Source: Candidatus Doudnabacteria bacterium (GTDB lineage: Bacteria; Patescibacteriota; Doudnabacteria; UBA920). Taken from it: a stretch of DNA of 48,936 nucleotides. The stretch covers positions 1 to 48,936 of the forward strand of contig CAIVSE010000077.1 in assembly GCA_903908535.1 (NCBI GenBank), in the 5' to 3' direction. How positions within the stretch are numbered: position 1 is the stretch's first letter; each line of letters opens with the position of its first letter. Below are positions 4,254 through 20,224 of the stretch, in pieces. The position numbers and the translations under genes were made by a program. The notes beneath the pieces were generated by a model that saw only the letters and a program-made list of their open reading frames with translations, had not been told where the DNA came from and did no database searches.

Positions 4254-4298
4254 TGGAGCCCAAGTGCGGAATTGAACCGCAGACCTGCTCCTTACCAT
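4254..4298 (-). tRNA. 3' half of the disrupted host tRNA-Thr(GGT), from anticodon loop to encoded CCA (attR)
   Basis: Reverse complement ATGGTAA GGAGC AGGTC TGCGG TTCAATT CCGCA CTTGGGC T CCA; completes the 5' half at 17880-17917. Confidence 0.9.
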
Positions 4299-4487
4299 CA
4301 ATAACCCCGAAGCAATTTTTGCACTTTGTGCAATAATTACAGGGAGAAAATGATTTTTTAGTTCACAAATATATACCGTTGCTAGGGCCTATTTATAACC
4401 AGTTATATTATAGACAAAGGAGTCTAAAAAAGCACTGCAACAACATATTTAATTTTTAAATGGGCTTACGGCTTAATTTTACATAAT

Positions 4488-5429
4488 TTACTTGAATAAT
4501 GCAACCCGCAGAGCGTTAAGGCCAGACTGCAAATTAGTGTCTGGCAACCATCGCAAATACACATTTATTGTTGTCCGTACGTCTTTGTGCCCCATCATAG
4601 ATGATAACCGCAGCAAGTCTTTTGTGGCCACGTAAAAATTTACGGCAAAGGTGTGGCGAAACCTATGAAGATGGCATTTTAGTCCCGTCGCTTCTTCCAG
4701 TTTTTTTATGAAGTGTTTGCCCCCGTGTTCCGTAAAGTTCCTATCTTCGGAGCTGGAGACCCATAAGTATGGAGTGGTTAGGGTTTTGCGGGCTTCCAGG
4801 TAAGTTCCCAGGTGGCTCATTAAATTTTCTTCAATTGGGACATAGTGGGTAATACGGGACTTTGAGATTTCCGCCCGCACGGTTAAAATTTTATTTTTTA
4901 AATCAAGGTCATCCAGCCGTAAACCGAATAATTCTTCTTTACGAACCCCAGTCATGCTTAGGAAATAAATCATGGTGTTATTTCGGATTCGCTGCAAAAG
5001 ATTCTCCCAAACAATATTGCGGCCCACGGCTAGGCAAATTTTGTCAAACTCCTCCAGTGTGAAAGCCCTTCTATCCGTGTACGAAACTTCTGGGTGCGGA
5101 ATTTTGTCAAAAGGGTTAGCGGTTATATGTCCTCCAATAACCAGCCAATTAAAGAATGAGCTTAACTTCCCCCTTATTGTGGATATGCTTGAATTTTTTA
5201 ATTTGCGGACTATCAGATGTTTGCCGACCTTCCTTTCCCGTGAGTTTAAGTAAGCAAAAAGATTTACCATTAGTTCGGGATTTAAATCTGCGGCCTGAAT
5301 GTCTGGCTTAAATTCAGTCAACAAGCCAAAATTATCCCGATAATTTTTTACGGTTTTTGGGGACTTCCCTTCCAAGTTTTCCGCCTGATTTACAAAATCT
5401 TCAAATAATTGTTTTAAGTTTTTTTCCAT
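4488..5429 (-). CDS. tyrosine recombinase/integrase adjacent to attR
   Basis: SAM-like N-terminal; catalytic pattern TGVRKEEL...HLHRFRHTFAVNFY...LSSMMGHKDVRTTINVYL. Confidence 0.92.
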   Translation of the reverse strand: MEKNLKQLFEDFVNQAENLEGKSPKTVKNYRDNFGLLTEFKPDIQAADLNPELMVNLFAYLNSRERKVGKHLIVRKLKNSSISTIRGKLSSFFNWLVIGGHITANPFDKIPHPEVSYTDRRAFTLEEFDKICLAVGRNIVWENLLQRIRNNTMIYFLSMTGVRKEELFGLRLDDLDLKNKILTVRAEISKSRITHYVPIEENLMSHLGTYLEARKTLTTPYLWVSSSEDRNFTEHGGKHFIKKLEEATGLKCHLHRFRHTFAVNFYVATKDLLRLSSMMGHKDVRTTINVYLRWLPDTNLQSGLNALRVALFK

Positions 5430-5595
5430 TGGGAACAGGTCTTTCTTCCAGGTTCTCCAGGCCTTTTTCTACGAATTTATTTATCAGGTCTAGGACTTTC
5501 GCCTGCTCATAGGCAGCTAAAATTTTTACACGCTTGTGTAATTTAGCATCCAGCCTAACCTGTTTTGTGGGGTCGCTTCGTAATTTTGTTGACAT
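5401..5595 (-). CDS. small ribbon-helix-helix-like protein (possible excisionase/regulator)
   Basis: KQVRLDAKLHKRVKILAAYEQAKVLDLINKFVEKGLENL; overlaps the integrase start. Confidence 0.6.
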   Translation of the reverse strand: MSTKLRSDPTKQVRLDAKLHKRVKILAAYEQAKVLDLINKFVEKGLENLEERPVPNGKKLKTII

Positions 5596-5924
5596 AAGAG
5601 TTTATAACCGCTTCTATTTCCTTTCATCCCCTCCTTCGGCTCATGGAAAGCCTGCTTCTACAATCAGTCAGCATGTCCTTTACAAAACGTTTGGCAAATA
5701 AAACGGGAAAAATAGGATTTGCCACGGCTTTTGGTTATTCACGCTGAATTTTTGTCTGACTAAAAGCGGACTAAAATTACTATTGCCGAACGGGTGAAAG
5801 TCCCCCGTTGTCAAGCGGTCAGACAGAGCGGGGACAATTATCCATTCGCCAATAGTTTGCGGCTGGTTTTTTTCGGGAGACTAACCGACGACTCCCTTCC
5901 ATGAGGTTGTTGCTTGGGAAAATC

Positions 5925-6251
5925 CAAACAAAAAAACCTAAAAACTACCCATATTCTAATTTTTAGAATACAAATAATTTTTAGGTTTCTCGGCGTTCAA
6001 CTGGCCGCCCTAAAATTTTTACGCTATACACCATTGCAGCCTGTCTGCTCGGATGTTTGACGCCGTTTAGCTTCAATGATTAAAGCTCGCGGTGGAAGGT
6101 TATAGTGTCTCCACTTGGACTGTTTTTAGTCCGTCACCCGCTTTTGTGGCAGGTGTTTACCTAAAGGCTCCGATTATTCCAGGGACGAGCCTAAAAGGGT
6201 TCCAAATATCGTAAAACTTATGAAATTTTAAAAAATCTTCTACTAATAACT
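5925..6251 (-). ncRNA. stand-alone structured ncRNA of ~325 nt, unknown class
   Basis: Promoter TTGACA-17 nt-TAAAAT (minus strand, 6258-6286); serial stems AGGCTC/GAGCCT, CACCTGC/GCGGGTG, GGACT/AGTCC, GTGGA/TCCAC, AGCTTTAA/TTGAAGCT, GGCGT/ACGCC; terminator AACCTAAAAA...TTTTTAGGTTTTTTT; no convincing ORF. Confidence 0.7.
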
Positions 6252-6311
6252 AAGGGTATTTTAAACCGAAGCCGAAAAACTGTCAAGAACAAATTACCAG
6301 TTTTCGTGGTA

Positions 6312-6340
6312 TTGCCAAAATAAGCTAAAAGAGTTAATAT
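6312..6340 (+). promoter_or_regulatory. putative promoter for the secreted-protein/SIR2 gene cluster, divergent from the ncRNA promoter
   Basis: TTGCCA-17 nt-TAATAT. Confidence 0.55.
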
Positions 6341-6400
6341 TAAAGCACAATTTAATCAGTTTGCCTAACCCCACAGCGGTGCTATGGGCATGGCAAAAAC

Positions 6401-6503
6401 CCACTCTCATGCAGCGACGGTCGTCTGTCTTGCTTTAGCCATGAGAGTGGTCTCTGCCCGAAAGGGCAGATGGAGCAAGCGGGCGGCCTTTTTTGATGCC
6501 CGC
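6401..6503 (+). promoter_or_regulatory. structured 5' leader of the 6517 gene
   Basis: CCACTCTCATG/CATGAGAGTGG, TCTGCCC-GAAA-GGGCAGA and GCGGGC/GCCCGC inverted repeats with an internal T-run, immediately before ATG 6517. Confidence 0.55.
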
Positions 6504-6516
6504 AGAAAGACTATTT

Positions 6517-7890
6517 ATGAAAAAACTTCTATTGACGATTTTAGTAACAATTTTACTGGCTCCTACTTTGGCTTCGGCTGATGATTTTGAAGGCTTAAGT
6601 TCTTTGGGCAGCCAAACAACCACAACGACTCCAAGTCCTATATCTTTTTACTATGGGGATAACAACCCTTCAACAAATATTACGTTTAAAACCAACTGTA
6701 AAAAATTACCGTCGGTGTCAATTGCTGGATTGCCGGCAGGTGCTTTCACTCCTTCTGTTAGCACTAACCCACGTTCACTCGGTTCCTCCGTTTTGTTTGT
6801 AACAGTTTCATTCGGCGGCGCGTTACTTGAAGAGGGGCAATTTTCAATAAGCATAACCCTAACAGATGCCTGTAATCCAAATTTAACACAAACCACTTTA
6901 TACAATGTAAAAGTTTCAAGCACCTTTGATGTAACAAGTAATTACGTTTTGCCATCTGGATATACCGGCCTTGCCTATAACGCGGCCATCAATTTCCAGT
7001 ATAAAGGAATATATACCCCCTCCGTAAGTTTTACTGGATTACCTGCGGGGATGACTCTTAGCAAGGTGGTGCAAAATTCCCCCAATACCTCCGGCATTAT
7101 TCCCGTGCAGTCTTACTCTGTGATTTTAAGCGGCACCCCAACACAGTCTGGTTTCTTTAACCCACAACTATTTATAACTGACCCGACAACTGATAACACG
7201 GACACATATTCTGACAATTTGTCGCTTACAATTATCCAAAGCTCTAATGCTCCCACAATCCAGGCTTCCACCACTCCAGTCACTAGCAGCCAGCCTGGAA
7301 ATATAACCGACCTGGCAGGGACAAATATAAGCTCTAATGGCACGGTATATATGATTACCGCCAGCGGCCAAAAACGGCCGTATACTTCCGCTGGAGCCTT
7401 CCTGTCTTATGGTTTTAATTCCTGGGCTGACGTTGTTACAGCCAGCTCGGCCGATTTAGCTTTACCAACTGGAAATTTTATTCCACCACGGGACGGGAAG
7501 ATTATCTGTTCCAACAAGGGAAGTGATACGGGCACTTGTTATTTAATTACCAACAGCGAAAAGGCCGCCTTTACCAGTTCGGCGGTATTCACAGGTTTAG
7601 GGTTTAGTTTTTCTAATTCTTTGAGCGGTGACGTTTCTTTCCTAAATTCTGCTCCCAATATAAATTCTGTAACTCAAACTCACCCAGAAGGGGTTTTGTT
7701 AAACAAAGGCGGGACGATTTACCTTGTCGGCAACAATGGCTTGCTGGGAGTTCCCGATGTAAACACTTTGACCTCTTGGGGTTACACTTCCAGCGATTCA
7801 GTGCTTGCTAATTCGGCCGACAATGCTTTGCCGCAAATAGGCGTTATGCCCGCTCATACCGCTGGGGCTTTAAATCCTTTTGGAAACTGA
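6517..7890 (+). CDS. secreted surface protein with putative Ig-like domains and a conserved C-terminal repeat domain
   Basis: Signal peptide MKKLLLTILVTILLAPTLASA; LPSGYTGLAYNAAINF-type Ig-like repeats; C-terminal ASGQKRPYTSAGAFLSYGFNSW shared with the 11823 ORF. Confidence 0.8.
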   Translation: MKKLLLTILVTILLAPTLASADDFEGLSSLGSQTTTTTPSPISFYYGDNNPSTNITFKTNCKKLPSVSIAGLPAGAFTPSVSTNPRSLGSSVLFVTVSFGGALLEEGQFSISITLTDACNPNLTQTTLYNVKVSSTFDVTSNYVLPSGYTGLAYNAAINFQYKGIYTPSVSFTGLPAGMTLSKVVQNSPNTSGIIPVQSYSVILSGTPTQSGFFNPQLFITDPTTDNTDTYSDNLSLTIIQSSNAPTIQASTTPVTSSQPGNITDLAGTNISSNGTVYMITASGQKRPYTSAGAFLSYGFNSWADVVTASSADLALPTGNFIPPRDGKIICSNKGSDTGTCYLITNSEKAAFTSSAVFTGLGFSFSNSLSGDVSFLNSAPNINSVTQTHPEGVLLNKGGTIYLVGNNGLLGVPDVNTLTSWGYTSSDSVLANSADNALPQIGVMPAHTAGALNPFGN

Positions 7891-7905
7891 TATCAAAAAT
7901 ATTTT

Positions 7906-9036
7906 ATGAACTTCCAGGAATTACAATCAAAGTGGTGGTATAGACTTCTAAAGATTATTTTTGCCTTGGCTTTTGTGGTCGGTGTGATTTTTGCATTTGT
8001 CGCCATTAGCCAGTATTTACCATCTAAAAGCACTCCTGCCGCAAAATCTATATTGAACTTCCAACAATTTTCACAATTACACGACGATGGGTTAAGTGTT
8101 CAACAGATTGTAGATTTTAACCACGTTCTCTATCCCTCATCTTCCAGCACTCCTTCCCAGTCCTCGGTAAAGACACCTTCTTGGCTGACTTACTTTGAAA
8201 TTTTAATTGGAGCTATACTGGTTGAAATAATATTTTTTTGGCTGATTCGTGGAGCGTTTTTGTATATTTTTGTTGGAAAAAAAACTTTAGCCACCAATGG
8301 CGCACTTTTTGGCGCAAAAAAAGCGACTAAAGTAGTTTTGGTGTTGGTTGGTGTTGCGCTGCTTGTTTTTGTAATTGTACGTATTTATTCCACAGTAAAA
8401 AATTACGGAGTAGTAAGTAATCCCGTTATGCCGCCTTCCCTTCAAATGCCAGTTACTGTTTTACCGACTAACGACGCTATTAACGGAAGCGGGACTTACT
8501 CCGATAAATACCCTCTAACATTTTCCGTAACGGGGAATAGCCAACTTACGAGTGAATTGGCCGCTTACGGGGTAATATATAAGGTCTGGCTGGGACTAAC
8601 AGGCTGGACTGGTTCGGGCAGTATCGGGGTAGACGGTAGTAGTGTTGTAAGTTTACATCCTGTTGGCGGGGGTGCCGATTATGGAGAGAGGGTTTCCTAT
8701 TCTGAAATACCCGCCTGCGCTGGATGTATGGAAGAAAACGCCGCACCTTACTTTTCAAGTGCAATGCAGACATACCAAGAATACGATGAAAAAAGTTTTG
8801 GTGTTCCTATAACCGTACCGCAAGGGCTAGAAGTTACGCCTATTTCATCCACGTTAGTAACTTACACATTGCCCGACGCTGACGGTCTGTCAACGCTCGG
8901 CGTGGTCTATTACCTTCCTGGTAGCCAAACAGTCAATGCTTATTACACAGATGCTGAATTTGTTTTGCCTGTGGGAGATACGGATTTATTAAACTTTTTG
9001 GCGCAGAATTTTATTCAGCAGGAAGGGTTAAAATAA
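7906..9036 (+). CDS. hypothetical membrane protein
   Basis: Open frame with three hydrophobic segments (approximately aa 15-35, 95-115 and 140-165). Confidence 0.7.
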   Translation: MNFQELQSKWWYRLLKIIFALAFVVGVIFAFVAISQYLPSKSTPAAKSILNFQQFSQLHDDGLSVQQIVDFNHVLYPSSSSTPSQSSVKTPSWLTYFEILIGAILVEIIFFWLIRGAFLYIFVGKKTLATNGALFGAKKATKVVLVLVGVALLVFVIVRIYSTVKNYGVVSNPVMPPSLQMPVTVLPTNDAINGSGTYSDKYPLTFSVTGNSQLTSELAAYGVIYKVWLGLTGWTGSGSIGVDGSSVVSLHPVGGGADYGERVSYSEIPACAGCMEENAAPYFSSAMQTYQEYDEKSFGVPITVPQGLEVTPISSTLVTYTLPDADGLSTLGVVYYLPGSQTVNAYYTDAEFVLPVGDTDLLNFLAQNFIQQEGLK

Positions 9037-9128
9037 AGTTATTGCGCCAACCTGGTTGGCAGGCCCAAGGCGTCCGGCTCGTGCTTTGACTATAACCCGA
9101 CGATGGGCGGTAGTTAAATTATAATTTT

Positions 9129-9323
9129 ATGGTAAAAAAACTATTGCTAATTATGAAGCCCAGTACAGGGGAAACAGCGGAAGAATTTGCCGCCCGTACT
9201 TGGCAAAACTTGGCAGGCCGAGGTTTAGCAAAAGACGGAAAGCTGGTTTCCCAGGGCGAAATGGGTAAAATTTTAGACAAAGAGCAAACGCTAAAAAATC
9301 AAGACGGCGTTATTCTAGGGTAG
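9129..9323 (+). CDS. small hypothetical protein
   Basis: 64-aa open frame MVKKLLLIMKPSTGETAEEFAARTWQNLAG. Confidence 0.45.
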   Translation: MVKKLLLIMKPSTGETAEEFAARTWQNLAGRGLAKDGKLVSQGEMGKILDKEQTLKNQDGVILG

Positions 9324-9377
9324 GAAGAGGCGGGCTGATTTGTATAATGGCCGAAAAGGGCTATAATATAAGCGGAA

Positions 9378-10412
9378 ATGGATTTTAAAATGGGGGTAAT
9401 TAAATATATGCCAAAACCAGTAATAATCTTGGGGGCAGGTGCTTCTTATGACTACATTCACAGAGGCGATAGTAACCTTCCGCTTAATCACGAGCCTCCT
9501 TTAGCGAATAACCTTTTTGATAAAAGGTTTGAAGGGATTATTAAGCATTTTCCGCAAGTGATGAACCTTTCAGCCAGCGTGGCCTCGGCTTCACGGCAAG
9601 GAAAAGGATTGGAAGAACTCTTTACAGAGATTCAGGCCAAAAGTTCGCAGAATCCCGAAAGACTGCAACAGCTCATAGCCTGCCAGTTCTATCTGCAAAA
9701 ACTTTTTAGAGATATTACCAGCAATTATGGGAGCCAATCCCAAAATAATTACAGCGAGCTTATTAACCAGATTAGGGACAATGGCGGCCAAGCGTGTGTG
9801 GTAAATTTTAACTATGACTTGCTGTTTGAGCAGGCTACTGGGTACAAATTAGAAAATGTTGGCGATTTTGTCGCCCACCCTATCAAAATAATTAAGGTTC
9901 ACGGGGCCTATAACTGGACTAAAGTTTTGCGGAACGCTTTTCGCATCCCAAGCGACGGTGACACTTACGGCTTTTTGATGAACAACCCAGAACATCTACT
10001 AAAAAATCCATCAGAAGATACAGACCCAATTTATATTCAGGACGGCTACGGTATGACGGATGGCAGTGGAGATAAATACTTCTTTTATCCCTGGATTGCA
10101 ATTCCCATTGCAGATAAAAATACCTTCGTTTGCCCGCCCGACCATCTGGTCGTATTAAAGGAAGCGTTGCGGCAAACCGATAGAATTTTAATTGTGGGAT
10201 GGAAGGCGGCAGACCAACACTTAGTTAAGCTAATGGGAGATGTTGTTCAGCAGGCTGTAAAAATAATTATTGTTAGCGGTTCAGGTAAAACCGCAAGGGA
10301 AATCCAAGCTAAATTATCGGGAGTAATAAACGCCACTTTTCCAAACTCGGTAGCTACGTTCAGCGATTTCGTGGGTAGTCAAATTTGCCAAGAATTTTTT
10401 CAAACCGAATAA
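9378..10412 (+). CDS. SIR2-like domain protein (possible NADase effector); start may be 9408
   Basis: VIILGAGASYD nucleotide-binding motif, CVVNFNYDLLFEQ and KVHGAYNW (candidate catalytic N and H), C-terminal ILIVGWKAADQHL. Confidence 0.8.
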   Translation: MDFKMGVIKYMPKPVIILGAGASYDYIHRGDSNLPLNHEPPLANNLFDKRFEGIIKHFPQVMNLSASVASASRQGKGLEELFTEIQAKSSQNPERLQQLIACQFYLQKLFRDITSNYGSQSQNNYSELINQIRDNGGQACVVNFNYDLLFEQATGYKLENVGDFVAHPIKIIKVHGAYNWTKVLRNAFRIPSDGDTYGFLMNNPEHLLKNPSEDTDPIYIQDGYGMTDGSGDKYFFYPWIAIPIADKNTFVCPPDHLVVLKEALRQTDRILIVGWKAADQHLVKLMGDVVQQAVKIIIVSGSGKTAREIQAKLSGVINATFPNSVATFSDFVGSQICQEFFQTE

Positions 10413-10413
10413 T

Positions 10414-11226
10414 ATGCCCTACCTAAGTTTGCCCTTTGCCAGAAAGACTTGGATTGTAAACGCTACAAAGTTTTGGACCACGCTGGCCTTAATCTTCGCC
10501 CTGCTTGCTCTTGATGTAGTTTGGTTAGTTGTCAGGGCAAAGACTTTAAATTTTCGTATCTTTGTAGTCACCCCTCCCCTGAAAGCCGTAATATCTTTGC
10601 TAATAATTTTGGCCATAGTTGTTCTGTTCATTTGGTTTATGGTTAAAGTGGATGAGCGACTGGACGCCAGGATGGAAAAGTGCTTGGCCAATTATGAACA
10701 CGCCCGCAAAGGTGATGACGGGGAAATCCTGGTACGTAAATATTTAAACCAATATTTGGACGAGAAACAGTACAAAATCTATCCTAATTACAAGATTCCC
10801 GCAGTAAAGGCGGATTATGACTTCGTAGTTGTCGGCCCCAAGGGCGTAATTTTAATAGAAGTTAAAACTTATGACGTCCATACAGTCTTTACCTACGATA
10901 AAGCATATGGCCAATCAGCGGATGGCAAATTATTTTCACTCTGGGATATTCGGGAAAAAGTTAAATGGCGGGCTGGGCAGTTAGAGAGGTATTTGGCCGA
11001 ACACGGCTTGGATAATATCAACGTACGCAAGGTGGTCCTGTTTGTGAATCTCAAATCGGTGGAAATCCAGGGCGGCTGGAAGAATAAATATAAGGTCTAT
11101 GTGGCCCAGGGTATTCCCGCATTTGCTGATTACCTTTTTCGCCAACAGCCAAGCCCCCAGTTTACGCCCGAATATGTTAAACGAGTTTGCGATGCCTTTA
11201 ATATTCAAACTACACCAGCTGTATGA
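10414..11226 (+). CDS. membrane-anchored NERD-domain (nuclease-related) protein
   Basis: Two N-terminal TM segments, then GDDGEILVRKYLNQYL...ADYDFVVVGPKGVILIEVKTYD. Confidence 0.8.
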   Translation: MPYLSLPFARKTWIVNATKFWTTLALIFALLALDVVWLVVRAKTLNFRIFVVTPPLKAVISLLIILAIVVLFIWFMVKVDERLDARMEKCLANYEHARKGDDGEILVRKYLNQYLDEKQYKIYPNYKIPAVKADYDFVVVGPKGVILIEVKTYDVHTVFTYDKAYGQSADGKLFSLWDIREKVKWRAGQLERYLAEHGLDNINVRKVVLFVNLKSVEIQGGWKNKYKVYVAQGIPAFADYLFRQQPSPQFTPEYVKRVCDAFNIQTTPAV

Positions 11227-11807
11227 TTAACGACATCTTGGAACAAACCGCAGAGGACTATTTTCGGCATTTGGGATATTTCACCCAGCACAACGTTAAG
11301 TATAAGCCGAACAAGAAGGGGCCTGCTTACGCCGTCCATTCCGACATAGATATAATCGGCATTAACCCCACTAAACGTGGTATAGAGCGGGTTGTGGTGG
11401 TAAGCTGTAAGAGCTGGCACGGCGGCATACGGATAAAAGGTTCCCTAGATGCCATAAAAAGGAGTTTAAGGAGAACAAGGAAGATTTACCGTGAAGTAGC
11501 CCAGCCGTACTGGTCAAAGGCTTTAAAAGATAAAGTCTACGAGCTGACTGACCAAAAAACTTTCGTCTTCTATTTTTGTTGTACCAGGTACGATAAACGG
11601 CATAGGGAACTGTGGGAGGGTGACAAAGAGTTTCGGAAAAATCTGGCTGGCTGTAAGATTAAACTACTGGACTTTGAAGAAATGGCCACGGCCATATGGC
11701 CCGAAATGCACATTATTACACCTTCCAACAGCGAACTCGGCAGGCTGTTCCAGTTCATCCACTTTAGCGGCGGGAAATTACATTATAAGGATTTAATTAA
11801 AAAATAA
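11223..11807 (+). CDS. PD-(D/E)XK-like nuclease-fold protein
   Basis: SDIDIIGINPTKRGIERVVVVSCKSWHGG resembles a restriction-endonuclease-like core (the usual acidic residue before the Lys motif is Ser); 4-nt overlap with the upstream gene. Confidence 0.6.
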   Translation: MINDILEQTAEDYFRHLGYFTQHNVKYKPNKKGPAYAVHSDIDIIGINPTKRGIERVVVVSCKSWHGGIRIKGSLDAIKRSLRRTRKIYREVAQPYWSKALKDKVYELTDQKTFVFYFCCTRYDKRHRELWEGDKEFRKNLAGCKIKLLDFEEMATAIWPEMHIITPSNSELGRLFQFIHFSGGKLHYKDLIKK

Positions 11808-11822
11808 TTAAGCCAAAACTTT

Positions 11823-13205
11823 ATGAAAAAAATTTATGTCAGCCTCTTCGTTCTTGTGCTTTGCTTGGCCTTCTATGCGCCCAATGCTAAAGCAGAAAAT
11901 CAAGCGTTTCAAATAATAACAACATCGCCTTTGCCCAATGCTTCCCTTGCTGATTATTATTCAGCTACCATTAAATATATTTATAGCGGCATTTGTGACC
12001 CTATTGTTACTACTCAAGGACTACCGCCGGGCATCAATTTAGGAAGTGGCTCAGTAAATGCTACTGATTTAGGCTCAACCACTCTAGTGGGTGCTCCAAC
12101 ACAAGAGGGGGTCTATACGGTTAAGTTTTATTTAAGTGATTCTTGCGGTTCCACCTTAGAACAAGATTTTAGCCTAACAGTAGTAAGTTATGTTCAAAAA
12201 GTTACAACTACTCAGGCAGGGGGCGCAACTACTGGTTTTCCTTACAATTCTACAATTAGCTTTGACTGGTTTGGCCCCACTGTCCCCGCAACAATAGTTT
12301 CAGGTTTGCCCCCAGGAATTGCCTCAAGCATTCCAGTTATGACCCCTGTTCAACAGGCTTCGGTTAGTGGCTTTTCGGACGCCATAACTTTGACCGGCAC
12401 GCCAACCCAAGCTGGTGTCTATAATGTTTTGGTTACAGTAACTGACCCTACTGCAAGTACAACTTTAGATTATCCTTTATCCATAGGCGCAAATCCATAT
12501 GCGTCCAATAATCCGCAACCAGCCGCTAGTCCAACATCCGTTCCAACGCCAATAGTTTCGAATCCCGCCATAACTAATCAAACAACCCCCACAACCGTAA
12601 ACCAAACATCAACCAGCGGCACAGACCCCGCCGGCACAAATGTTATCTCTAACGGTATAGTCTATGAAATAACCGCCAGCGGCCAAAAACGGCCATATAC
12701 TTCGGCTGGAGCTTTCTTGTCTTACGGTTTTAACTCCTGGGCCAATGTAGTTACAGCCAGTTCCGCCGATTTAGCTTTGCCCACGGGGAATTTTATCCCG
12801 CCACGTGACGGGAAGATTATTTGCTCCAACAAAGGAAGCGATATGGGAACTTGTTACCTAATTACAGATAGCAAAAAAGCCGCCTTTACCAGTGCGGCCG
12901 TGTTTACAGGTTTAGGATTTAGTTTCTCCAATTCCTTGAGCGGTGATGTTTCCTTTTTACCATCTGCCCCAAATATCAGCTCTGCCAGCCAGTTGCATCC
13001 TGCGGGCATTTTAGTAAATAAGGGCGGCACAATTTACCTCACAGGCGATAATGGACTGCTTGGTGTGCCAGATATGGCCACACTGACCTCTTGGGGTTAT
13101 TCCTTAACCGATTCTGTCCCCGCCAATGCCGCCGATTCAGCTACGGCGCAAAGCGGCGTAATGACAGCTCACACGGCTGGGGCGTTGAACCCATTTGGTA
13201 ATTGA
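11823..13205 (+). CDS. secreted surface protein, paralogue of the 6517 ORF
   Basis: Signal peptide; near-identical C-terminal ~190 aa (ITASGQKRPYTSAGAFLSYGFNSWANVVTASSADLALPTGNFIPPRDGKIICSNKGSD). Confidence 0.8.
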   Translation: MKKIYVSLFVLVLCLAFYAPNAKAENQAFQIITTSPLPNASLADYYSATIKYIYSGICDPIVTTQGLPPGINLGSGSVNATDLGSTTLVGAPTQEGVYTVKFYLSDSCGSTLEQDFSLTVVSYVQKVTTTQAGGATTGFPYNSTISFDWFGPTVPATIVSGLPPGIASSIPVMTPVQQASVSGFSDAITLTGTPTQAGVYNVLVTVTDPTASTTLDYPLSIGANPYASNNPQPAASPTSVPTPIVSNPAITNQTTPTTVNQTSTSGTDPAGTNVISNGIVYEITASGQKRPYTSAGAFLSYGFNSWANVVTASSADLALPTGNFIPPRDGKIICSNKGSDMGTCYLITDSKKAAFTSAAVFTGLGFSFSNSLSGDVSFLPSAPNISSASQLHPAGILVNKGGTIYLTGDNGLLGVPDMATLTSWGYSLTDSVPANAADSATAQSGVMTAHTAGALNPFGN

Positions 13206-13226
13206 TGGTTATTAAAGTTTTATAGT

Positions 13227-14222
13227 ATGGCCGTCCTGTTTTTCCAAAATAAGTTTCATCCAAAAGTTAAGTATGGCCCGAATTTTGATTTAGAGGCCAG
13301 TTTCCTTTCTGAAAAAGGGGTGGCTTTTGAAGGGGAAGGTGGATTTTTTGCCATCAGTATGAACTTTGGAGGAGACCCTTATTTTGCACCAGTTCCAAAC
13401 CCTCCCGAAATTTCTTTAAAGGATTGGGTTTTAAAAAGTTTTGGGGATGGTAATCCGACAGAGCACGGGACTGTCCCTGGTGTATGTTATAAGCGGATTT
13501 GGAGGCCTGGTATAAATAACTATTATAACCGTGGTTTTGAAAAAACAATTTCGCAGAAGGAACTTACCCAATCATCCGTTTCCTTGCAGATTTTACTGGA
13601 TAAATTAGAGAGTTTGTTTGAATTTTTAGAGCCGAGCGAGCAAAATGAATCCGCATATGGTCATAGAATAAGAGAAATTATTTTGTTAGCTTCTATGGAA
13701 GTTGAATCTGCTTGGTCTGCGGTTCTCAGGGATAATGGTTATACATCGGAGCAGGATTTTAATACCAAGGATTATGTTAAACTTCTAAACCCAATGTTTT
13801 TGGATGGATATAAATTATCTCTCCAGCAATATCCCCAATTTAGCCCTTTTAGTCCTTTTGAAGGCTGGAACCCCGCTGCCCCGACCCATTCTTTAATTTG
13901 GTATGATGCCTACAACAAAATAAAACATGACAGAGAGAAAAACCTGCCTTTGGCTACATTGCAAAATGCTATTACGTCAGTTGGTGCAGCGGCGGTAATG
14001 TACAGAGCGCAATTTGGATTTAATAGACCATTTACTTGGACCCAGCAACCAAAACCGCCTTTTATAGACAGTATATTTTCGCTAGAGACGAGTGACGGAT
14101 TCAAAAAATACGAAAAAGATTTTTATATATCAAAATTAGGCCTTCGCCAGTCTGGTTCCACTATTGAGCTTGACCATGGTCCCGCCCAAAACTGGACAAT
14201 ACTAAATTATAAATTTGATTAA
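13227..14222 (+). CDS. hypothetical protein
   Basis: 331-aa open frame; no family recognised. Confidence 0.65.
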   Translation: MAVLFFQNKFHPKVKYGPNFDLEASFLSEKGVAFEGEGGFFAISMNFGGDPYFAPVPNPPEISLKDWVLKSFGDGNPTEHGTVPGVCYKRIWRPGINNYYNRGFEKTISQKELTQSSVSLQILLDKLESLFEFLEPSEQNESAYGHRIREIILLASMEVESAWSAVLRDNGYTSEQDFNTKDYVKLLNPMFLDGYKLSLQQYPQFSPFSPFEGWNPAAPTHSLIWYDAYNKIKHDREKNLPLATLQNAITSVGAAAVMYRAQFGFNRPFTWTQQPKPPFIDSIFSLETSDGFKKYEKDFYISKLGLRQSGSTIELDHGPAQNWTILNYKFD

Positions 14223-14278
14223 CGAAAAGCTACTTCCTGTAATTAGACTTATGGGAAGTCGGAGCGTATTTTGTATAA

Positions 14279-14316
14279 AAAAACCGTAGAACCTTTTAGA
14301 GGAACTACGGTAGGTG
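14279..14316 (-). terminator. intrinsic terminator downstream of the M50-like gene
   Basis: Reverse complement CCGTAG...CTACGG followed by TTTTTTT. Confidence 0.7.
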
Positions 14317-14339
14317 TTTGGCTTGATGGTCGGTGATGC

Positions 14340-15158
14340 CTACTTCCCGAACAGCCAGTGAAAGTCCTGTAACGTAGAAGTAATTAGGTCGTAGACGAAC
14401 AACCCAAATATTATCAACATTCCAGCCAGTCGGTACAGAGCCAGCAACAAGCGTGGGGCCTTAATCTTTTCTAATGACGTTTCTATAATACGTCCACCGT
14501 CCAGCGGCAGAAATGGCAGCGTGTTCATCAATCCCAAACAAAGGGACAAAGTGCAAGCCATCATCACCCCTTTGGTAAAGTTCAGGTTGTAATGGTAAAC
14601 ATCGGCAGCAAGTTTTAAGTATCCGCCGTTTGACTTAAATGCTTCGGGGTGAAAAACGGAGGCGTGGGCCATAAGAGCTAATAAGCACAGCCCCAAGAGC
14701 GGAACCCCGTATCGGCAGAATTGTTTCTTTAGCGGCAGTAAAACTAAGGCCATAACTGCACAGGCTCCAGCTATTCGGTAGTCGGCCATTGTCAGTTCGC
14801 AGACAGCCAGAACCACGAGTGGATAAAAGATACTCCCCCAAACACCCGCCCCGTAAATCACGGAGGATTCGCTGTAAGGCAGCCACCGTTGTATTTTCAG
14901 GCTGTCCCTGGTTGAGTTCTTGACGTAAGCCATAAACGGCAGGATGTTGAGGTAAAACGGCGTGTTGGGTAGCAGCCAAGGAATACTAAGCCGCAGCCGA
15001 GGCCAAGATGTGATTGGTACCCCAAAGCCCCATTCTCTGACCCTGAGCCCACGTTTTAACATCTCACGGGCGTGTTCATACTCGTGGAGCAGAACAAAAA
15101 TAACCGTAACCAAAATACACGTCACCAAGCCAAGCATATTTGTCCCCCTTTGACTCAC
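14340..15158 (-). CDS. M50 (site-2 protease-like) membrane metalloprotease
   Basis: LLHEYEHA (HExxH) in the first TM region and NTLPFLPLDGGRII second motif. Confidence 0.8.
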   Translation of the reverse strand: MSQRGTNMLGLVTCILVTVIFVLLHEYEHAREMLKRGLRVREWGFGVPITSWPRLRLSIPWLLPNTPFYLNILPFMAYVKNSTRDSLKIQRWLPYSESSVIYGAGVWGSIFYPLVVLAVCELTMADYRIAGACAVMALVLLPLKKQFCRYGVPLLGLCLLALMAHASVFHPEAFKSNGGYLKLAADVYHYNLNFTKGVMMACTLSLCLGLMNTLPFLPLDGGRIIETSLEKIKAPRLLLALYRLAGMLIIFGLFVYDLITSTLQDFHWLFGK

Positions 15159-15227
15159 AATTGTACTGCATTTATAGGGGTTCTGTCAAGCGGTTTTAGG
15201 GTGGCTTATATTATTAAAAGGAATTTT

Positions 15228-15614
15228 TTAAACATCCTGGTCCGCACTGTTTTTTGCTGAATAATCTGTAATGTTAATTATGAAGGGTTGACTTTCGGCG
15301 TTACCCAACTCTTGTCGTGGGCTAAACTCTTTCTTTAGTTTGCGTTCCAAATACCATTTCGCTTCGTTTGAGTTGTCCAAACTCTCCACAATTGTTTGAC
15401 GGGCTTTTAAAATTGGCTGTTGCCGCAGTCCGTCAATTTTGTCGGAAAATTCGGGTTTTTCTTTCAAAAAATTATAGAAGGTATCCCTGCTGATTCCCGC
15501 AAAGGAACAGGCTTCTTCGGCCGTTGCGTCAATGGCAAAAGCCGTCTCCAGTTTTCGGACAACGGTTGCCGTCATCACCGATGGCCTGCCAACTTTTTTA
15601 GTTTTAGATTTCAT
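15228..15614 (-). CDS. small helix-turn-helix protein, terminase-small-subunit-like or recombinase accessory
   Basis: VGRPSVMTATVVRKLETAFAIDATAEEACSFAGISRDTFYNFLKEKPEF; directly abuts the recombinase gene. Confidence 0.6.
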   Translation of the reverse strand: MKSKTKKVGRPSVMTATVVRKLETAFAIDATAEEACSFAGISRDTFYNFLKEKPEFSDKIDGLRQQPILKARQTIVESLDNSNEAKWYLERKLKKEFSPRQELGNAESQPFIINITDYSAKNSADQDV

Positions 15615-16520
15615 TTAAAAGTTCACCCCCTGAAAGGTTGCGTAATAGCGGGGTAAGTCCGCTTTATGCTTTATATTGTCGTTGTATACCTGTAACATCT
15701 CCAGGCTTTTGTGTCTGGTGTATTGGGCAACTTCCAACAAGTCGCCTTTATAAGTTTTAATTAACATGGTAGTAAAGTAGTGCCTGAGGCCGTGGACACA
15801 TTTTGTAATATTGAGTTCGCCAAGCAGGCATTTTACAATTTGTCTTAACGCCCTGGTTGTCAGCCTGTGATTTATGCTGTTGTTGCTCCTGCTGGTGAAC
15901 AGCGGGCCACTGCCAACCTTATTGGCTTTAGCATAAATCTTTAAATTTTTAACCGTTTCGGGATGCAGGTTGATAATTTCCTTGTCATCTCTCCCCTTTC
16001 CCCGCACAAAGGCTACCCCACTTACAAGGTCTAAATCTTTTACGTCCAGCCTAGCAATTTCTATCTGCCGTAATCCTTGCAGGGTTAAAAGGCTAAAAAT
16101 GGCCTTTAGGCGTGAGCTTTCGGGATTTTCGGGTAAAGATTGGAGTTTTTGCGAAACGCTTTGGATTTCGGCTTCTGTAAGGCCGTCTCGTTTATGCTTC
16201 TTGCTTTGGTTAAAACTTTTTACGTTTTGGGTGATGTCTGCGGGTAAAGCCCCTTGTCGGTTAAGCTCCTTTAGGAAGATTTTGGCTGCCGCCAAATATT
16301 TGTTTTTAGTCGCTGTGCTGTAATCGTTACGACCGTCCAAATACCGTTTGAACTTTAAAAAGCTGTTGCGGTCAAAGCCTTCCCTTTGGATGAAGCCCAC
16401 GAACATACCAATGCGGCACTGGTAATCTTTCCGTGTGCCTTCGCTAACATCTAGGTTTTCAAAAATCCTTGCGGCTTGCTGTTCGGGGTTGCTTATGACT
16501 TGTAGAGTTTTAGTGTCCAT
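15615..16520 (-). CDS. tyrosine recombinase
   Basis: LTLQGLRQIEIARL...CVHGLRHYFTTMLIK...VAQYTRHKSLEMLQVYND. Confidence 0.9.
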   Translation of the reverse strand: MDTKTLQVISNPEQQAARIFENLDVSEGTRKDYQCRIGMFVGFIQREGFDRNSFLKFKRYLDGRNDYSTATKNKYLAAAKIFLKELNRQGALPADITQNVKSFNQSKKHKRDGLTEAEIQSVSQKLQSLPENPESSRLKAIFSLLTLQGLRQIEIARLDVKDLDLVSGVAFVRGKGRDDKEIINLHPETVKNLKIYAKANKVGSGPLFTSRSNNSINHRLTTRALRQIVKCLLGELNITKCVHGLRHYFTTMLIKTYKGDLLEVAQYTRHKSLEMLQVYNDNIKHKADLPRYYATFQGVNF

Positions 16521-16524
16521 ATGA

Positions 16525-17418
16525 TTATAAATTATTTAATGGGTGTTTGGTCATTTGCGAACGTAAATGTTCGGCACTGGCTGACAAATAAATTGTCGTG
16601 GTCTTAATGTCCGAGTGTCCCATCATTCGGGAAAGGCTGTAAATGTCGCATCCGCCTTCCAGCATCAGCGTGGCAAAAGTGTGCCGCAGCTTATGAATGG
16701 TAAACTTAATTTTTGACGCTTTAACCATAGTTAGCAAGAGTCTTTTTAAGCCGCTGTCCGTGAATCCTTTATCGTGGTTCAGGGAGATAAAAAATTCTGG
16801 GCAAGTCCTTTTTAGCCGCTTCCGCTCTTCCAGGTATTTTTGCAGACTTTCCGCCAGCTTATAGCATATCGGCAGGATTCTATCCTTACCGCCTTTCCCC
16901 TGCCGAATAAATATGGATAAATTTTCCAGGTCAACGTCGGTATACTTTAAATTTAGCAGTTCCTTTTTCCTTATGCCCGACAGGATGAAGGTGGAAAATA
17001 TGGCGTGGTTCCTGTAACGCAGGAATTTATAAGAATACGGGAAATTGTACGAGACTTCCAAAATTTTCATCGCTTCCTGCCGAGTCAGTTTTGGCGGCAG
17101 TCTTTTCTCCAGCTTTGGGATTTCTATGTCGTCCGTGGGGTTAAACTGCATATAACCCTCTTTCACGCACCACCTAAAGAATACGGCTAAAGATTTGTGG
17201 TAGCAGATGAACGTGTTGGGCGTCCAACCTTGGGAAGTCCTGCCGTAGTAGAATAATTCCCGTGTATTGTCTTTGGTGACCTGCTCCAATTCCTCTATGC
17301 CCGCAAACCTCGTATAATAATTTATTACCTGTTTGTAGCGTTTTAATGTCGGTTTTGAATAGCCTTTTATGTACTGCGAATAATCGCAAAACTTTTGGGC
17401 TAATGTCGCTATTTGCAT
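16525..17418 (-). CDS. tyrosine recombinase
   Basis: LSGIRKKELLNLKY...IHKLRHTFATLMLE...LSRMMGHSDIKTTTIYLS. Confidence 0.92.
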   Translation of the reverse strand: MQIATLAQKFCDYSQYIKGYSKPTLKRYKQVINYYTRFAGIEELEQVTKDNTRELFYYGRTSQGWTPNTFICYHKSLAVFFRWCVKEGYMQFNPTDDIEIPKLEKRLPPKLTRQEAMKILEVSYNFPYSYKFLRYRNHAIFSTFILSGIRKKELLNLKYTDVDLENLSIFIRQGKGGKDRILPICYKLAESLQKYLEERKRLKRTCPEFFISLNHDKGFTDSGLKRLLLTMVKASKIKFTIHKLRHTFATLMLEGGCDIYSLSRMMGHSDIKTTTIYLSASAEHLRSQMTKHPLNNL

Positions 17419-17422
17419 ATAA

Positions 17423-17450
17423 AAAACACTCCAACGTTAATTGCAGTGTT
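17423..17450 (-). terminator. intrinsic terminator just after the element tRNA and just before the recombinase start
   Basis: Minus strand AACACTGCAATTAACGTTGGAGTGTTTTTT. Confidence 0.6.
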
Positions 17451-17456
17451 TTCTAC

Positions 17457-17741
17457 TGGAGCCCAAGTGCGGAATTGAACCGCAGACCTTCTCCTTCACT
17501 TTTACCTCAATTTCTAACTGGCTACCTGGCCGCCAGTTGTTATATAAGGGTTAGACTGTATCTTACGCTTACCGTAAAGGTTTAGCGTTCCTTGTCAGTC
17601 GTTCGGGCGATTGCTCGCCACGGTCTTGGCCATTGCGGGCTATTAACCGTAATTCGGATTTCATTAAAATGTTTCCATTTTAACGGGCAAGCCTCTTGTA
17701 AGGCCACCATGGAGATGCTCTACCAACTGAGCTACTTGGGC
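17457..17741 (-). tRNA. element-borne tRNA-Thr(GGT) interrupted by a group I intron-like sequence
   Basis: 5' exon 17706-17741 (GCCCAAGTAGCTCAGTTGGTAGAGCATCTCCATGGT), 3' exon 17457-17496 (AAGGAGAAGGTCTGCGGTTCAATTCCGCACTTGGGCTCCA); joined they form a perfect 76-nt cloverleaf with CCA. Confidence 0.9.
17497..17705 (-). other. group I intron in the tRNA anticodon loop (between positions 36 and 37)
   Basis: 5' exon ends in T, intron ends in G; candidate P1 GGU/GCC with terminal U.G; hairpin TTAAAATG-GAAA-CATTTTAA; P6 GGCGA-GCAA-TCGCC; P7 GACTG/CAGTC preceded by J8/7-like AAGATA; P8 ACGCT/AGCGT; P9 AACTGGC/GCCAGTT. P3 not clearly assigned. Confidence 0.85.
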
Positions 17742-17879
17742 AAACAACGGTATAAATTTTTGTGAACTTTGACCAGCCCACGACCTGTTTAGGGCGGAAC
17801 AGGGTCATCCTACTCTTCTCTTTTGGCATTTCTGCTTTTGGATTAGAGCAATTCCTTGATAACAAGCAGGGCCTGTTTA

Positions 17880-17938: not shown

Positions 17939-18787
17939 CTACACGTTTTTTAATTTTTCCGCAATGTCCGCGTTAAACGGTTCAAACTTTTGGGCCTTGA
18001 GCAATGCGGCTTTGGCGGCCAGCCGGTTGCCGGTCTTTTGCAGAGCCCCGGCCAGGGTGGTGTAAAATTTAATGTTGCGGGGTTCCAGGACAATGGCCTG
18101 CTTAAAAGTTTCGGCCGCCTCATTCAGCTGGCCTAAAGCCTCCTGGCACACGCCTTTATTATATAGCCGATTGGGCTGGGAAGGGTCAATGGCCAGGGAC
18201 TGGGCGTAATTTTCCACGGCCGGCCCGTAATCTTTTAGTTTATAGTTGGCCTGGGCCAAACGCGCGTAATATTCGGCATTAGTCATATTATGACGGACCA
18301 AATACTGGAAGATATCGCGCGCGTCGGCAGACTGGCCGCTGTCCAGATAAAATTTACCCAGTTGGTTATAAAGCTGGAGGTTTTTAGGGTCAGCTTTAAT
18401 TTTTTCCAGATAATAATTATCATCAGGCTCGCCGGTTTGATTTTCGGCCTGCGCAGGGATTGGCCGGGCGGCCGGCAGCGCCGCCGCGCTTACCGCATTA
18501 CGGCCAAAAATTTTTTTGACGCGGTAGCCTACTGCCGCGGATGGCCTTAGGTCCTTGGCCTCCAGAAGGAAGTGCCACAACCTTTGGCTTTGCCGCTGAA
18601 AGTAAGTCCGGAATTTGGGAATATCAAGCCAGGGCAGGCCTTTAAGCTTAATTTTTTGCGCCAAGGGGTCAGCCTGCTCCGGCTGGATTTTCGATGCCTC
18701 CGGTAAATGCCGCAGGATCATAAGCACAATCCCGAGAAAAGAAACTATAAGTAAAATATTTGGAATAATTTGGTAAGACAAGCGCAA
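17939..18787 (-). CDS. TPR-repeat membrane protein
   Basis: One N-terminal TM; repeated TPR pattern NLQLYNQLGKFYLDSGQ, NAEYYARLAQANYKLKDY, NRLYNKGVCQEALGQLNEAAETF. Confidence 0.85.
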   Translation of the reverse strand: MRLSYQIIPNILLIVSFLGIVLMILRHLPEASKIQPEQADPLAQKIKLKGLPWLDIPKFRTYFQRQSQRLWHFLLEAKDLRPSAAVGYRVKKIFGRNAVSAAALPAARPIPAQAENQTGEPDDNYYLEKIKADPKNLQLYNQLGKFYLDSGQSADARDIFQYLVRHNMTNAEYYARLAQANYKLKDYGPAVENYAQSLAIDPSQPNRLYNKGVCQEALGQLNEAAETFKQAIVLEPRNIKFYTTLAGALQKTGNRLAAKAALLKAQKFEPFNADIAEKLKNV

Positions 18788-18873
18788 TAATTTCCAATTT
18801 TTAATTTTCAGTTTTCAATGACTTTGCGCCATTGAGTTTGAAAATTGAAAATTGTTAAATGAAAATTTTAATT

Positions 18874-19455
18874 TTAGTTTCCCAAAACGAAACGCGAAAA
18901 GCGGCGCACCACTACATTCTCCCCCATTTTGCCCACGGCTTGCGCTACTAGATCCTTTATTTTTGTATCCGGATTTTTTACAAACGGCTGTTCCATTAGG
19001 CAGGCTTCCTCATAGTATTTGGCCACGCGGCCCTCCACCATCTTATTTATGATATCTTCCGGCTTGCCTTTGGCTTGTTCTTTATAAATTTCCTGTTCTT
19101 TTTCCATCACGTCACCCGGCACATCCGCAATACTTACGTATAAAGGATTAGCCGCGGCAATGTGCAGGGCAATTTCTTTAACCAAAGTTTTAAAGTCGTC
19201 GGTGCGGGACACAAAGTCGGTTTCGCAATTAACTTCCACCAAAACGCCCACGCGGGAACCTGGATGGATGTAGGCTTCAACCAGGCCTTCCTTGGCCGCG
19301 CGTTCGGACTTTTTTCCGGCCTTCATGGCGCCTTTTTTGCGCAAAATTTCCATGGCTTTGTCCTTATCGTTGCCGGCTTCCGTAAGCGCTTCTTTGATAT
19401 CAACAATCCCCGCTCCGGTTAATTCGCGCAGTTCTTTTAAAATATCGTTAGACAT
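18874..19455 (-). CDS. tsf: translation elongation factor Ts
   Basis: LKELRELTGAGIVDIKEALTEAGNDKDKAMEILRKKG; VNCETDFVSR. Confidence 0.97.
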   Translation of the reverse strand: MSNDILKELRELTGAGIVDIKEALTEAGNDKDKAMEILRKKGAMKAGKKSERAAKEGLVEAYIHPGSRVGVLVEVNCETDFVSRTDDFKTLVKEIALHIAAANPLYVSIADVPGDVMEKEQEIYKEQAKGKPEDIINKMVEGRVAKYYEEACLMEQPFVKNPDTKIKDLVAQAVGKMGENVVVRRFSRFVLGN

Positions 19456-19480
19456 ATGATTTTGTTTAGGTTAAATTAAT

Positions 19481-20224
19481 CTACTTAACTTCTTCAGCTG
19501 ACGGTTCGGCCACCGGAGCCGCTTCCTTGACTATCGCGGCCGCGCCCTTGGCTTCGTTAATGGCGTTGCTCATAGCCTGGCAGATAAGCTCTATGGCTTT
19601 GGTGGCATCGTCGTTGGCCGGAATCACATAGTTAATCCCTTCCGGGTTAACATTGGTATCTACAACGCCCACAATCTTTATGTTACTTTTTTGGGCTTCC
19701 TTTACCGCAATATCATCGTGTTTAACGTCAGTAACAAAAATGGCATCCGGCAGTTTCTTCATGTTTTTAATGCCCTCGAACAGCTTTTCCATCTTTTCTA
19801 TTTCGCGGTCAATCATCAAACGTTCTTTTTTGGTGTATTTGGTTTCCAGTTCTCCGGTAGCCTTTAAGCCTTCCAGGCGTTCCATTTTGCGCACGGTGCG
19901 CTGGATGGTTTTAAAGTTGGTAAAGGTGCCGCCCAGCCAGCGGACGTTAATGTAAGGCATGCCGCAGGCCATGGCTGCGTTTTTTAAAATGTCCTTGCTT
20001 TGCCGTTTGGTTCCCACAAATAAGATGGTACCGCCTTTGCCGGCCACGTCGCCGGCAAATTTCATGGCTTTTTCCAGGTTCTTTTTGGTCTGTTCCAAAT
20101 CCAAAATATGGATACCGCTCCGAACCGTAAAAATGTACGGCTTCATTTTGGGGTTCCACCGGCTGGTGGTATGGCCAAAATGCGCTCCGCTTTTGAGCAA
20201 ATCTAAAAGGGTGATGTCTTTCAT
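19481..20224 (-). CDS. rpsB: 30S ribosomal protein S2
   Basis: LLKSGAHFGHTTSRWNPKMKPYIF; RWLGGTFTNF. Confidence 0.98.
   Translation of the reverse strand: MKDITLLDLLKSGAHFGHTTSRWNPKMKPYIFTVRSGIHILDLEQTKKNLEKAMKFAGDVAGKGGTILFVGTKRQSKDILKNAAMACGMPYINVRWLGGTFTNFKTIQRTVRKMERLEGLKATGELETKYTKKERLMIDREIEKMEKLFEGIKNMKKLPDAIFVTDVKHDDIAVKEAQKSNIKIVGVVDTNVNPEGINYVIPANDDATKAIELICQAMSNAINEAKGAAAIVKEAAPVAEPSAEEVK

Follow-up and report, generated by a model that had tools for sequence, protein, structure and literature searches.

What is the 209-nt insert that interrupts a tRNA-Thr(GGU) gene in this stretch of DNA, and why does it lie where it does? The stretch, a contig of 48,936 nucleotides from a Candidatus Doudnabacteria bacterium, is called ‘the window’ here. 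On its minus strand the order is GCCCAAGTAGCTCAGTTGGTAGAGCATCTCCATGGT, 209 nt, AAGGAGAAGGTCTGCGGTTCAATTCCGCACTTGGGCTCCA; the insert thus follows U36 of the anticodon, between positions 36 and 37 of the tRNA, and its last base is G. It divides the loop ATGGTAA into ATGGT and AA, and the anticodon stem of the gene that bears it is TCTCC/GGAGA. ARAGORN calls no tRNA in the unspliced sequence and a canonical tRNA-Thr(ggt) once the 209 nt are taken out. An earlier note, made from the letters alone, had placed a 209-nt interruption at 17497-17705 in the anticodon loop of a tRNA-Thr(GGU); its coordinates are exact, on the minus strand, and the comparative structure agrees with an insertion within the loop. 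The parts of the gene are:

17706..17741, minus strand: 5' exon of the element-borne tRNA-Thr(GGU), ending CTCC-ATGGT
17705..17497, minus strand: group I intron, 209 nt
17457..17496, minus strand: 3' exon of the element-borne tRNA-Thr(GGU), AA-GGAGA...CCA

The minimum-energy fold of the window's own copy alone (-74.5 kcal/mol, z = -5.1, equalled by 0 of 200 shuffles) contains the anticodon stem, P1, P2 with a GAAA cap, P4, P5, P6 with a GCAA loop, P7, P8 and P9. A DNA search over 148 related genomes found eleven full-length homologues, every one in a tRNA-Thr with anticodon GGU and at the identical insertion point. From the resulting alignment of 12 sequences, window included, RNAalifold recovers the anticodon stem, P1, P2, P4, P5, P6, P7, P8 and P9. 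P3, a pseudoknot, was put into the consensus by hand to give a structure of 53 pairs, in which 96.5% of cells are paired across the 12 homologues and 31 pairs change on both sides (0/500 shuffles); when the partners are slid by one base, pairing in this alignment falls to 42-46%. Among 28 distinct sequences, in an alignment fitted to a covariance model and so biased towards that model, 96.7% are paired and both sides change in 36 of 50 pairs. Two helices of the core are:

17600-17596 with 17558-17554, minus strand: P7, GACTG pairing with CAGTC (fold and RNAalifold consensus)
17658-17656 with 17591-17589, minus strand: P3 pseudoknot, TCC pairing with GGA (covariation)

P7 is invariant but for one A-U variant among the 28 sequences, and P3 covaries three ways (CCC/GGG, UCC/GGA and CUC/GAG); with P3 included, no helix expected of a group I intron is missing. 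The earlier note had proposed a group I intron, and comparative structure and covariation agree. The U that it saw before the 5' splice site forms a U.G pair in P1 in 28/28 distinct sequences, the terminal G is present in all 12 aligned introns, and its P1, GAAA-capped hairpin, P6 with GCAA loop, P7 GACTG/CAGTC, P8 and P9 all occur in the minimum-energy fold. The check that it suggested, an Infernal search with Rfam RF00028, gave no pass: the window intron reaches 13.1 bits with an E-value of 1.1, far short of the gathering score of 50, and beyond the S element its alignment is wrong. The gathering score is a curated cut-off and no defining structural feature, and none of eight homologues passes it either. 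RF00028 misses the whole subgroup, and we therefore built a covariance model of our own, whose E-values are rough. By comparative structure, the insert belongs to the group I introns of phage type and escapes the general Rfam model RF00028. An archaeal-type, protein-spliced intron is ruled out on structure.

The question of why the intron lies at these bases leads to the surrounding DNA, in which the following features stand out:

17939..20224, minus strand: host synteny block of TPR protein, EF-Ts and ribosomal protein S2
17917-17880, minus strand: 5' half of the original host tRNA-Thr(GGU), attL, with stem GCTCC and the core ATGGTAA (17886-17880) at its end
4298-4254, minus strand: 3' half of the original host tRNA-Thr(GGU), attR, starting with the core ATGGTAA (4298-4292), stem GGAGC
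4292..17879, no strand: integrative element of about 13.6 kb, one core copy counted, placed by the split halves and the intact gene in sisters
16525..17418, minus strand: int1, XerC/D-like tyrosine recombinase of 297 aa (Pfam PF00589; 59-72% identity in relatives)

The 5' half, 139 bp upstream of the intron-bearing gene, reads ...CAGCTCC-ATGGTAA and then diverges; the 3' half reads ATGGTAA-GGAGC.... Together they form a complete anticodon stem (5/5 pairs) and a complete acceptor stem (7/7); joined by script, they are called as tRNA-Thr(ggt). Since these distant halves share the stem GCTCC/GGAGC and the intron-bearing gene has TCTCC/GGAGA, the two halves belong together: judged by their stems, the halves 13.6 kb apart are one tRNA-Thr(GGU). 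The upstream 5' half might also be taken for the relic of a tandem tRNA; this is ruled out by its stem, which agrees with that of the distant 3' half (4254-4298) and not with that of the adjacent copy. In the sister genomes G020 and G010, tRNA-Thr(GGU) is whole and intronless in the same synteny, and the block of TPR protein, EF-Ts and S2 adjoins it with or without the element. The 13.6 kb is, by its ends, an integrative element, and the 7-bp anticodon loop ATGGTAA serves as its attachment core.

Both junctions bear just half a tRNA with the core ATGGTAA; attP has no tRNA half, so that a tRNA is not restored at either end. Within the element there is a cognate tRNA gene of matching isotype, whose spliced form is tRNA-Thr(ggt). 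No other tRNA-Thr(GGU) was found among the tRNAs of the genome, a metagenome assembly in 93 contigs and 87.7% complete, in which Thr(TGT) and Thr(CGT) alone are found elsewhere. In this context, which was not in the earlier note, the intron-bearing gene reads as a replacement for the host tRNA-Thr(GGU) split at the same bases. Near both ends of the element, at 4343-4385 and 17742-17775, lie inverted copies of TTCACAAA(A)..TATACCGTTG, candidate arm sites for the integrase.

In every close relative int1 lies directly 3' of the tRNA, and the residues R...K...H-R...H...Y of Int1 are invariant among relatives. Between the tRNA and the int1 start codon there is, as read from the sequence, a terminator-like hairpin, like others in the relatives:

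17420..17455, minus strand: terminator-like hairpin AACACT...AGTGTT with a T-run

A promoter scan upstream of the element tRNA did not rise above shuffles.

Searches with the int1 alignment recover the same module in about ten further patescibacterial elements, and the layout is found in Doudnabacteria (G021 is of the same family as the window genome), Parcubacteria, Komeilibacteria, Uhrbacteria, Buchananbacteria and Kerfeldbacteria. Both split halves are present in eleven genomes, several of them estimated to be 94-100% complete; in seven of the eleven the halves share a contig, and the elements there measure about 8 to 29 kb. In each genome the two halves match fully (anticodon stem 5/5, acceptor 7/7) and give tRNA-Thr(ggt) when joined by script. 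The replacement gene lies ~140-250 bp inside the element, directly upstream of int1. All of these genomes are metagenome assemblies, save one odd isolate contig. That contig (L126, ~9600-10900), labelled Niastella populi, a Bacteroidota isolate, carries an intron-bearing tRNA-Thr and int1, and has a near-palindrome, GTGTTTA-ATGGTAA-TAAACAC, where the split half is expected, which resembles an unrecombined attP; it is either cross-phylum transfer or contamination. No free element or virus with a close int1 was present in the viral contigs searched, and a plasmid collection gave just XerC/D-like matches of <60% identity to int1. Remoter int1 relatives (L138 and L139) adjoin tRNA-Thr(UGU) and tRNA-Lys(UUU), neighbours that point to target switching within the integrase family.

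How might the pieces work together? We think it quite probable that this is tRNA-dependent integration of the kind seen in some actinophages, in which the integrative element carries a replacement tRNA-Thr(GGU) with a phage-type group I intron, and the intron, or a recoded stem, shields that replacement. Since the element splits the host tRNA-Thr at the very bases where the intron lies, the intron probably conceals the spare gene from the integrase that the element encodes. Any element that breaks an essential tRNA gene needs to supply another, but an exact copy would in turn be open to attack by the integrase. The elements compared here appear to have solved this in two ways: an intron interrupts the att core, or the stem is recoded. 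The sequences show that integration split the host gene at ATGGTAA and that the element brings a whole tRNA-Thr(GGU) next to its integrase gene; that Int1 performs the integration we infer. The intron would leave the transcript by the usual guanosine-initiated two-step reaction, and the spliced, working tRNA would take over from the broken and presumably essential host tRNA. As DNA, the intron would make the replacement gene no target for Int1, and would thereby block both deletion between attL and the internal tRNA and insertion by sister elements. If the loop of the replacement were target-like and uninterrupted, the integrase of the element would act on it; recombination with attL would then remove the arm region, and the tRNA that stayed next to int1 would be intact. 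Once integrated, the element would be hard to lose unless it were excised precisely, with the host gene thereby made whole again. In relatives with an intronless replacement, the same end would be reached by the recoded anticodon stem.

One locus (G683), in which int1 adjoins an intact, intronless tRNA of the NNTCC type and no split half, looks by its layout just like that deletion product; the other reading is an ancestral 3'-half layout. The locus is among the points that weigh against the shield reading. Of two int1 relatives, one (L158) has an intact tRNA-Thr without intron as its neighbour and the other (L128) a 3' half alone; these are probably the classical tRNA-restoring layout or deletion products.

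The replacement genes themselves bear on shielding. Eleven bear the intron: those of the window, G021, G009, G086, G583, G617, G528, G562, G482, G423 and the Niastella populi contig. A split half was detected for ten of these, and in each of the ten the stem is still of the target type, NNTCC; among the split targets of the close integrase family, the stem ends in TCC in 14/14. The four intronless replacements of close relatives (G267, G689, G678 and G099) have the stems ACGCC, CCACC, CCACC and TCGCC, and two distant relatives (G263 and G326) are likewise without intron and without TCC. In the close family, then, the target-type stem accompanies 10/10 intron-bearing and 0/4 intronless replacements (Fisher p 0.001), and with the more distant members, 17 in all, 10/11 versus 0/6 (p 0.0006). 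Among the matches listed from a phylum sample, resident intronless genes have T at the third place of the stem, the T of NNTCC, in 117/149 cases and A or G in 6/149; set against those listed matches, A or G in all four intronless replacements gives p 1e-5. On the integrase tree, parsimony requires at least four changes of intron state, and the stem changes along in every independent pair that differs. Such contrasts are few, two on well-supported branches and four on the best tree, with two of the four intronless cases close kin, and an independent-pairs test on this too poorly resolved tree gave no significance. Because just two pairs are well supported, we regard the association of stem and intron as suggestive, not proven.

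A narrower claim, that the element family took up a self-splicing intron as a DNA shield against its own and sister integrases, and that resident hosts bearing the intron would be immune, we favour only slightly on the sequences at hand. Selection for shielding is a claim separate from the origin of the intron. If true, it would give a group I intron a concrete, assayable selective role, make the old idea of tRNA introns as guards against integration directly testable, and account for a tRNA-Thr(GGU) that seems absent or broken to standard tRNA finders and to RF00028.

The principal competitor, which we consider unlikely though deserving of weight, is a neutral passenger intron: it would spread among tRNA-Thr(GGU) genes by homing or recombination, owing to the conservation of the anticodon loop, and any shielding would be an unselected by-product. 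The earlier note expected a Thr(GGU) host to be uncommon. That is partly right: such hosts are a small minority, about 5%, of the phylum genomes sampled, but the same intron recurs in 18 of the 389, and in 15 of these 18 the gene has no adjoining split copy. Presence in resident genes that lack the element speaks for a passenger, and makes an origin as a homing passenger, taken up by elements afterwards, likely; an element may simply have acquired an existing intron. So too does the intron tree, in which element-borne and resident tRNA-Thr introns are intermixed, as does an open reading frame for a GIY-YIG or LAGLIDADG-like protein just upstream of some resident copies. What the passenger reading leaves unexplained is the absence of the target-type stem from intronless replacements, and the occurrence of the intron in 11 of 17 element-borne copies versus about 5% of sampled genomes.

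The upstream frames just mentioned are free-standing (L195 1728-2378, minus strand; L198 1725-2309, minus strand; L202 1166-1402, plus strand) and are candidate homing endonucleases, GIY-YIG by Pfam or LAGLIDADG-like by eye, the latter without Pfam support. Farther afield, the same core (CGAACGACTGACAAG...ATACAGTC) occurs on >25 IMG/VR phage contigs, whose introns score 38-125 bits with the new covariance model and in some cases evidently lie inside protein genes; on the tree, phage introns and tRNA-Thr introns form two separate groups (100/100). An annotated phage collection held no nucleotide match to the intron or to a related phage-contig intron. Another group I intron-like element lies near tRNA-Thr in G067 (L186, 1807-2007, minus strand; RF00028 47 bits), apparently in the neighbouring tRNA gene, and there is a weak second R1 match in G040 (L011, 2519-2736, minus strand).

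It is very improbable that the interrupted gene is a dead copy, its intron unspliced, with ACC/ACU decoded by, for example, tRNA-Thr(UGU) or by a tRNA encoded in the 12% of the genome that the assembly lacks. The incompleteness of the genome gives this reading some room, but the pairings of the catalytic core and of the splice sites are preserved and covary, the exons fold to a perfect tRNA, and the host gene is split in 11 genomes, among them the nearly complete ones mentioned above. An assembly artefact, or chance tRNA fragments beside an unrelated island, could be suspected in a metagenome assembly of 93 contigs, but this is scarcely credible and is refuted by recurrence, as the layout returns in many genomes of several families and the halves match each other, not the internal copy.

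Group I introns interrupt bacterial tRNA-Arg genes, among others. They are known also in Leu-UAA, fMet and Ile2 (PMC3984707, PMC8450103), and with these the present intron shares its short, ORF-less form, its place in the anticodon loop and the use of the anticodon stem exons; it differs in its tRNA-Thr(GGU) host, in a core nearest to phage-contig introns, in its location within an integrative element and in being missed by RF00028. The tRNA-dependent lysogeny of actinobacteriophages (Guerrero-Bustamante and Hatfull 2024; PMC10865867) was shown genetically for Lys and inferred for Ile2, Leu and others. There, as here, a tyrosine integrase is used, the host tRNA is destroyed and the element brings a whole tRNA of matching isotype. 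The phage tRNA of that work is described without an intron, whereas here, in Patescibacteria and as known from sequence, a tRNA-Thr(GGU) replacement lies next to the integrase and has a group I intron at the att core or a recoded stem.

A disruption of tRNA-Thr(GGU) in Caldiarchaeum (Sugahara et al. 2012; PMC3293823) likewise has a 5' fragment upstream of an intron-bearing copy and an adjoining recombinase gene, and its authors proposed that the element brought the intron and was thereby protected. That case involves protein-removed archaeal introns, with the added intron at 24/25, in one population, with a 1.8-kb insertion and no far half demonstrated; the present one involves a group I ribozyme at 36/37, both halves and many genomes. 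The hypothesis of Randau and Soell, as cited in PMC4090602, holds that tRNA introns block integration, and shares with ours the idea that an intron in a tRNA attachment site removes attB; as cited there it concerns archaeal host defence, whereas here the element itself carries the intron in the replacement gene. Among open-licence papers, we found none that describes a group I intron in a replacement tRNA or, for Patescibacteria, within tRNA-Thr(GGU).

The rest of the element raises the question of what kind of element it is. Its further features include:

15615..16520, minus strand: second tyrosine recombinase, 301 aa
4488..5429, minus strand: third tyrosine recombinase, 313 aa, at the far end of the element
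15228..15614, minus strand: small protein like a phage terminase small subunit (PHROG 4102, E 6e-20)
6362-6488, plus strand: LOOT RNA (RF03000, 55.9 bits), just upstream of a secreted-protein-like ORF

The second recombinase has no close copy in the G021, G009 or G086 regions. The terminase-like protein is possibly a packaging gene of the satellite type; no virion gene was found besides it in the 13.6 kb. The traits considered for a phage satellite are an integrase with a small terminase of its own, the lack of capsid genes and a size of 8-29 kb; the element in the window shows them, and it is possibly a satellite. PADLOC gave a weak SIR2 match and one marginal match, and nothing more. At 9378-11807, on the plus strand, a SIR2-like protein, a NERD-domain nuclease and a possible restriction-like protein lie in tandem, cargo of a defence type. 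The secreted-protein-like ORF downstream of the LOOT RNA, at 6493-7890, and the one at 11823-13205 are near-identical in their C-terminal region.
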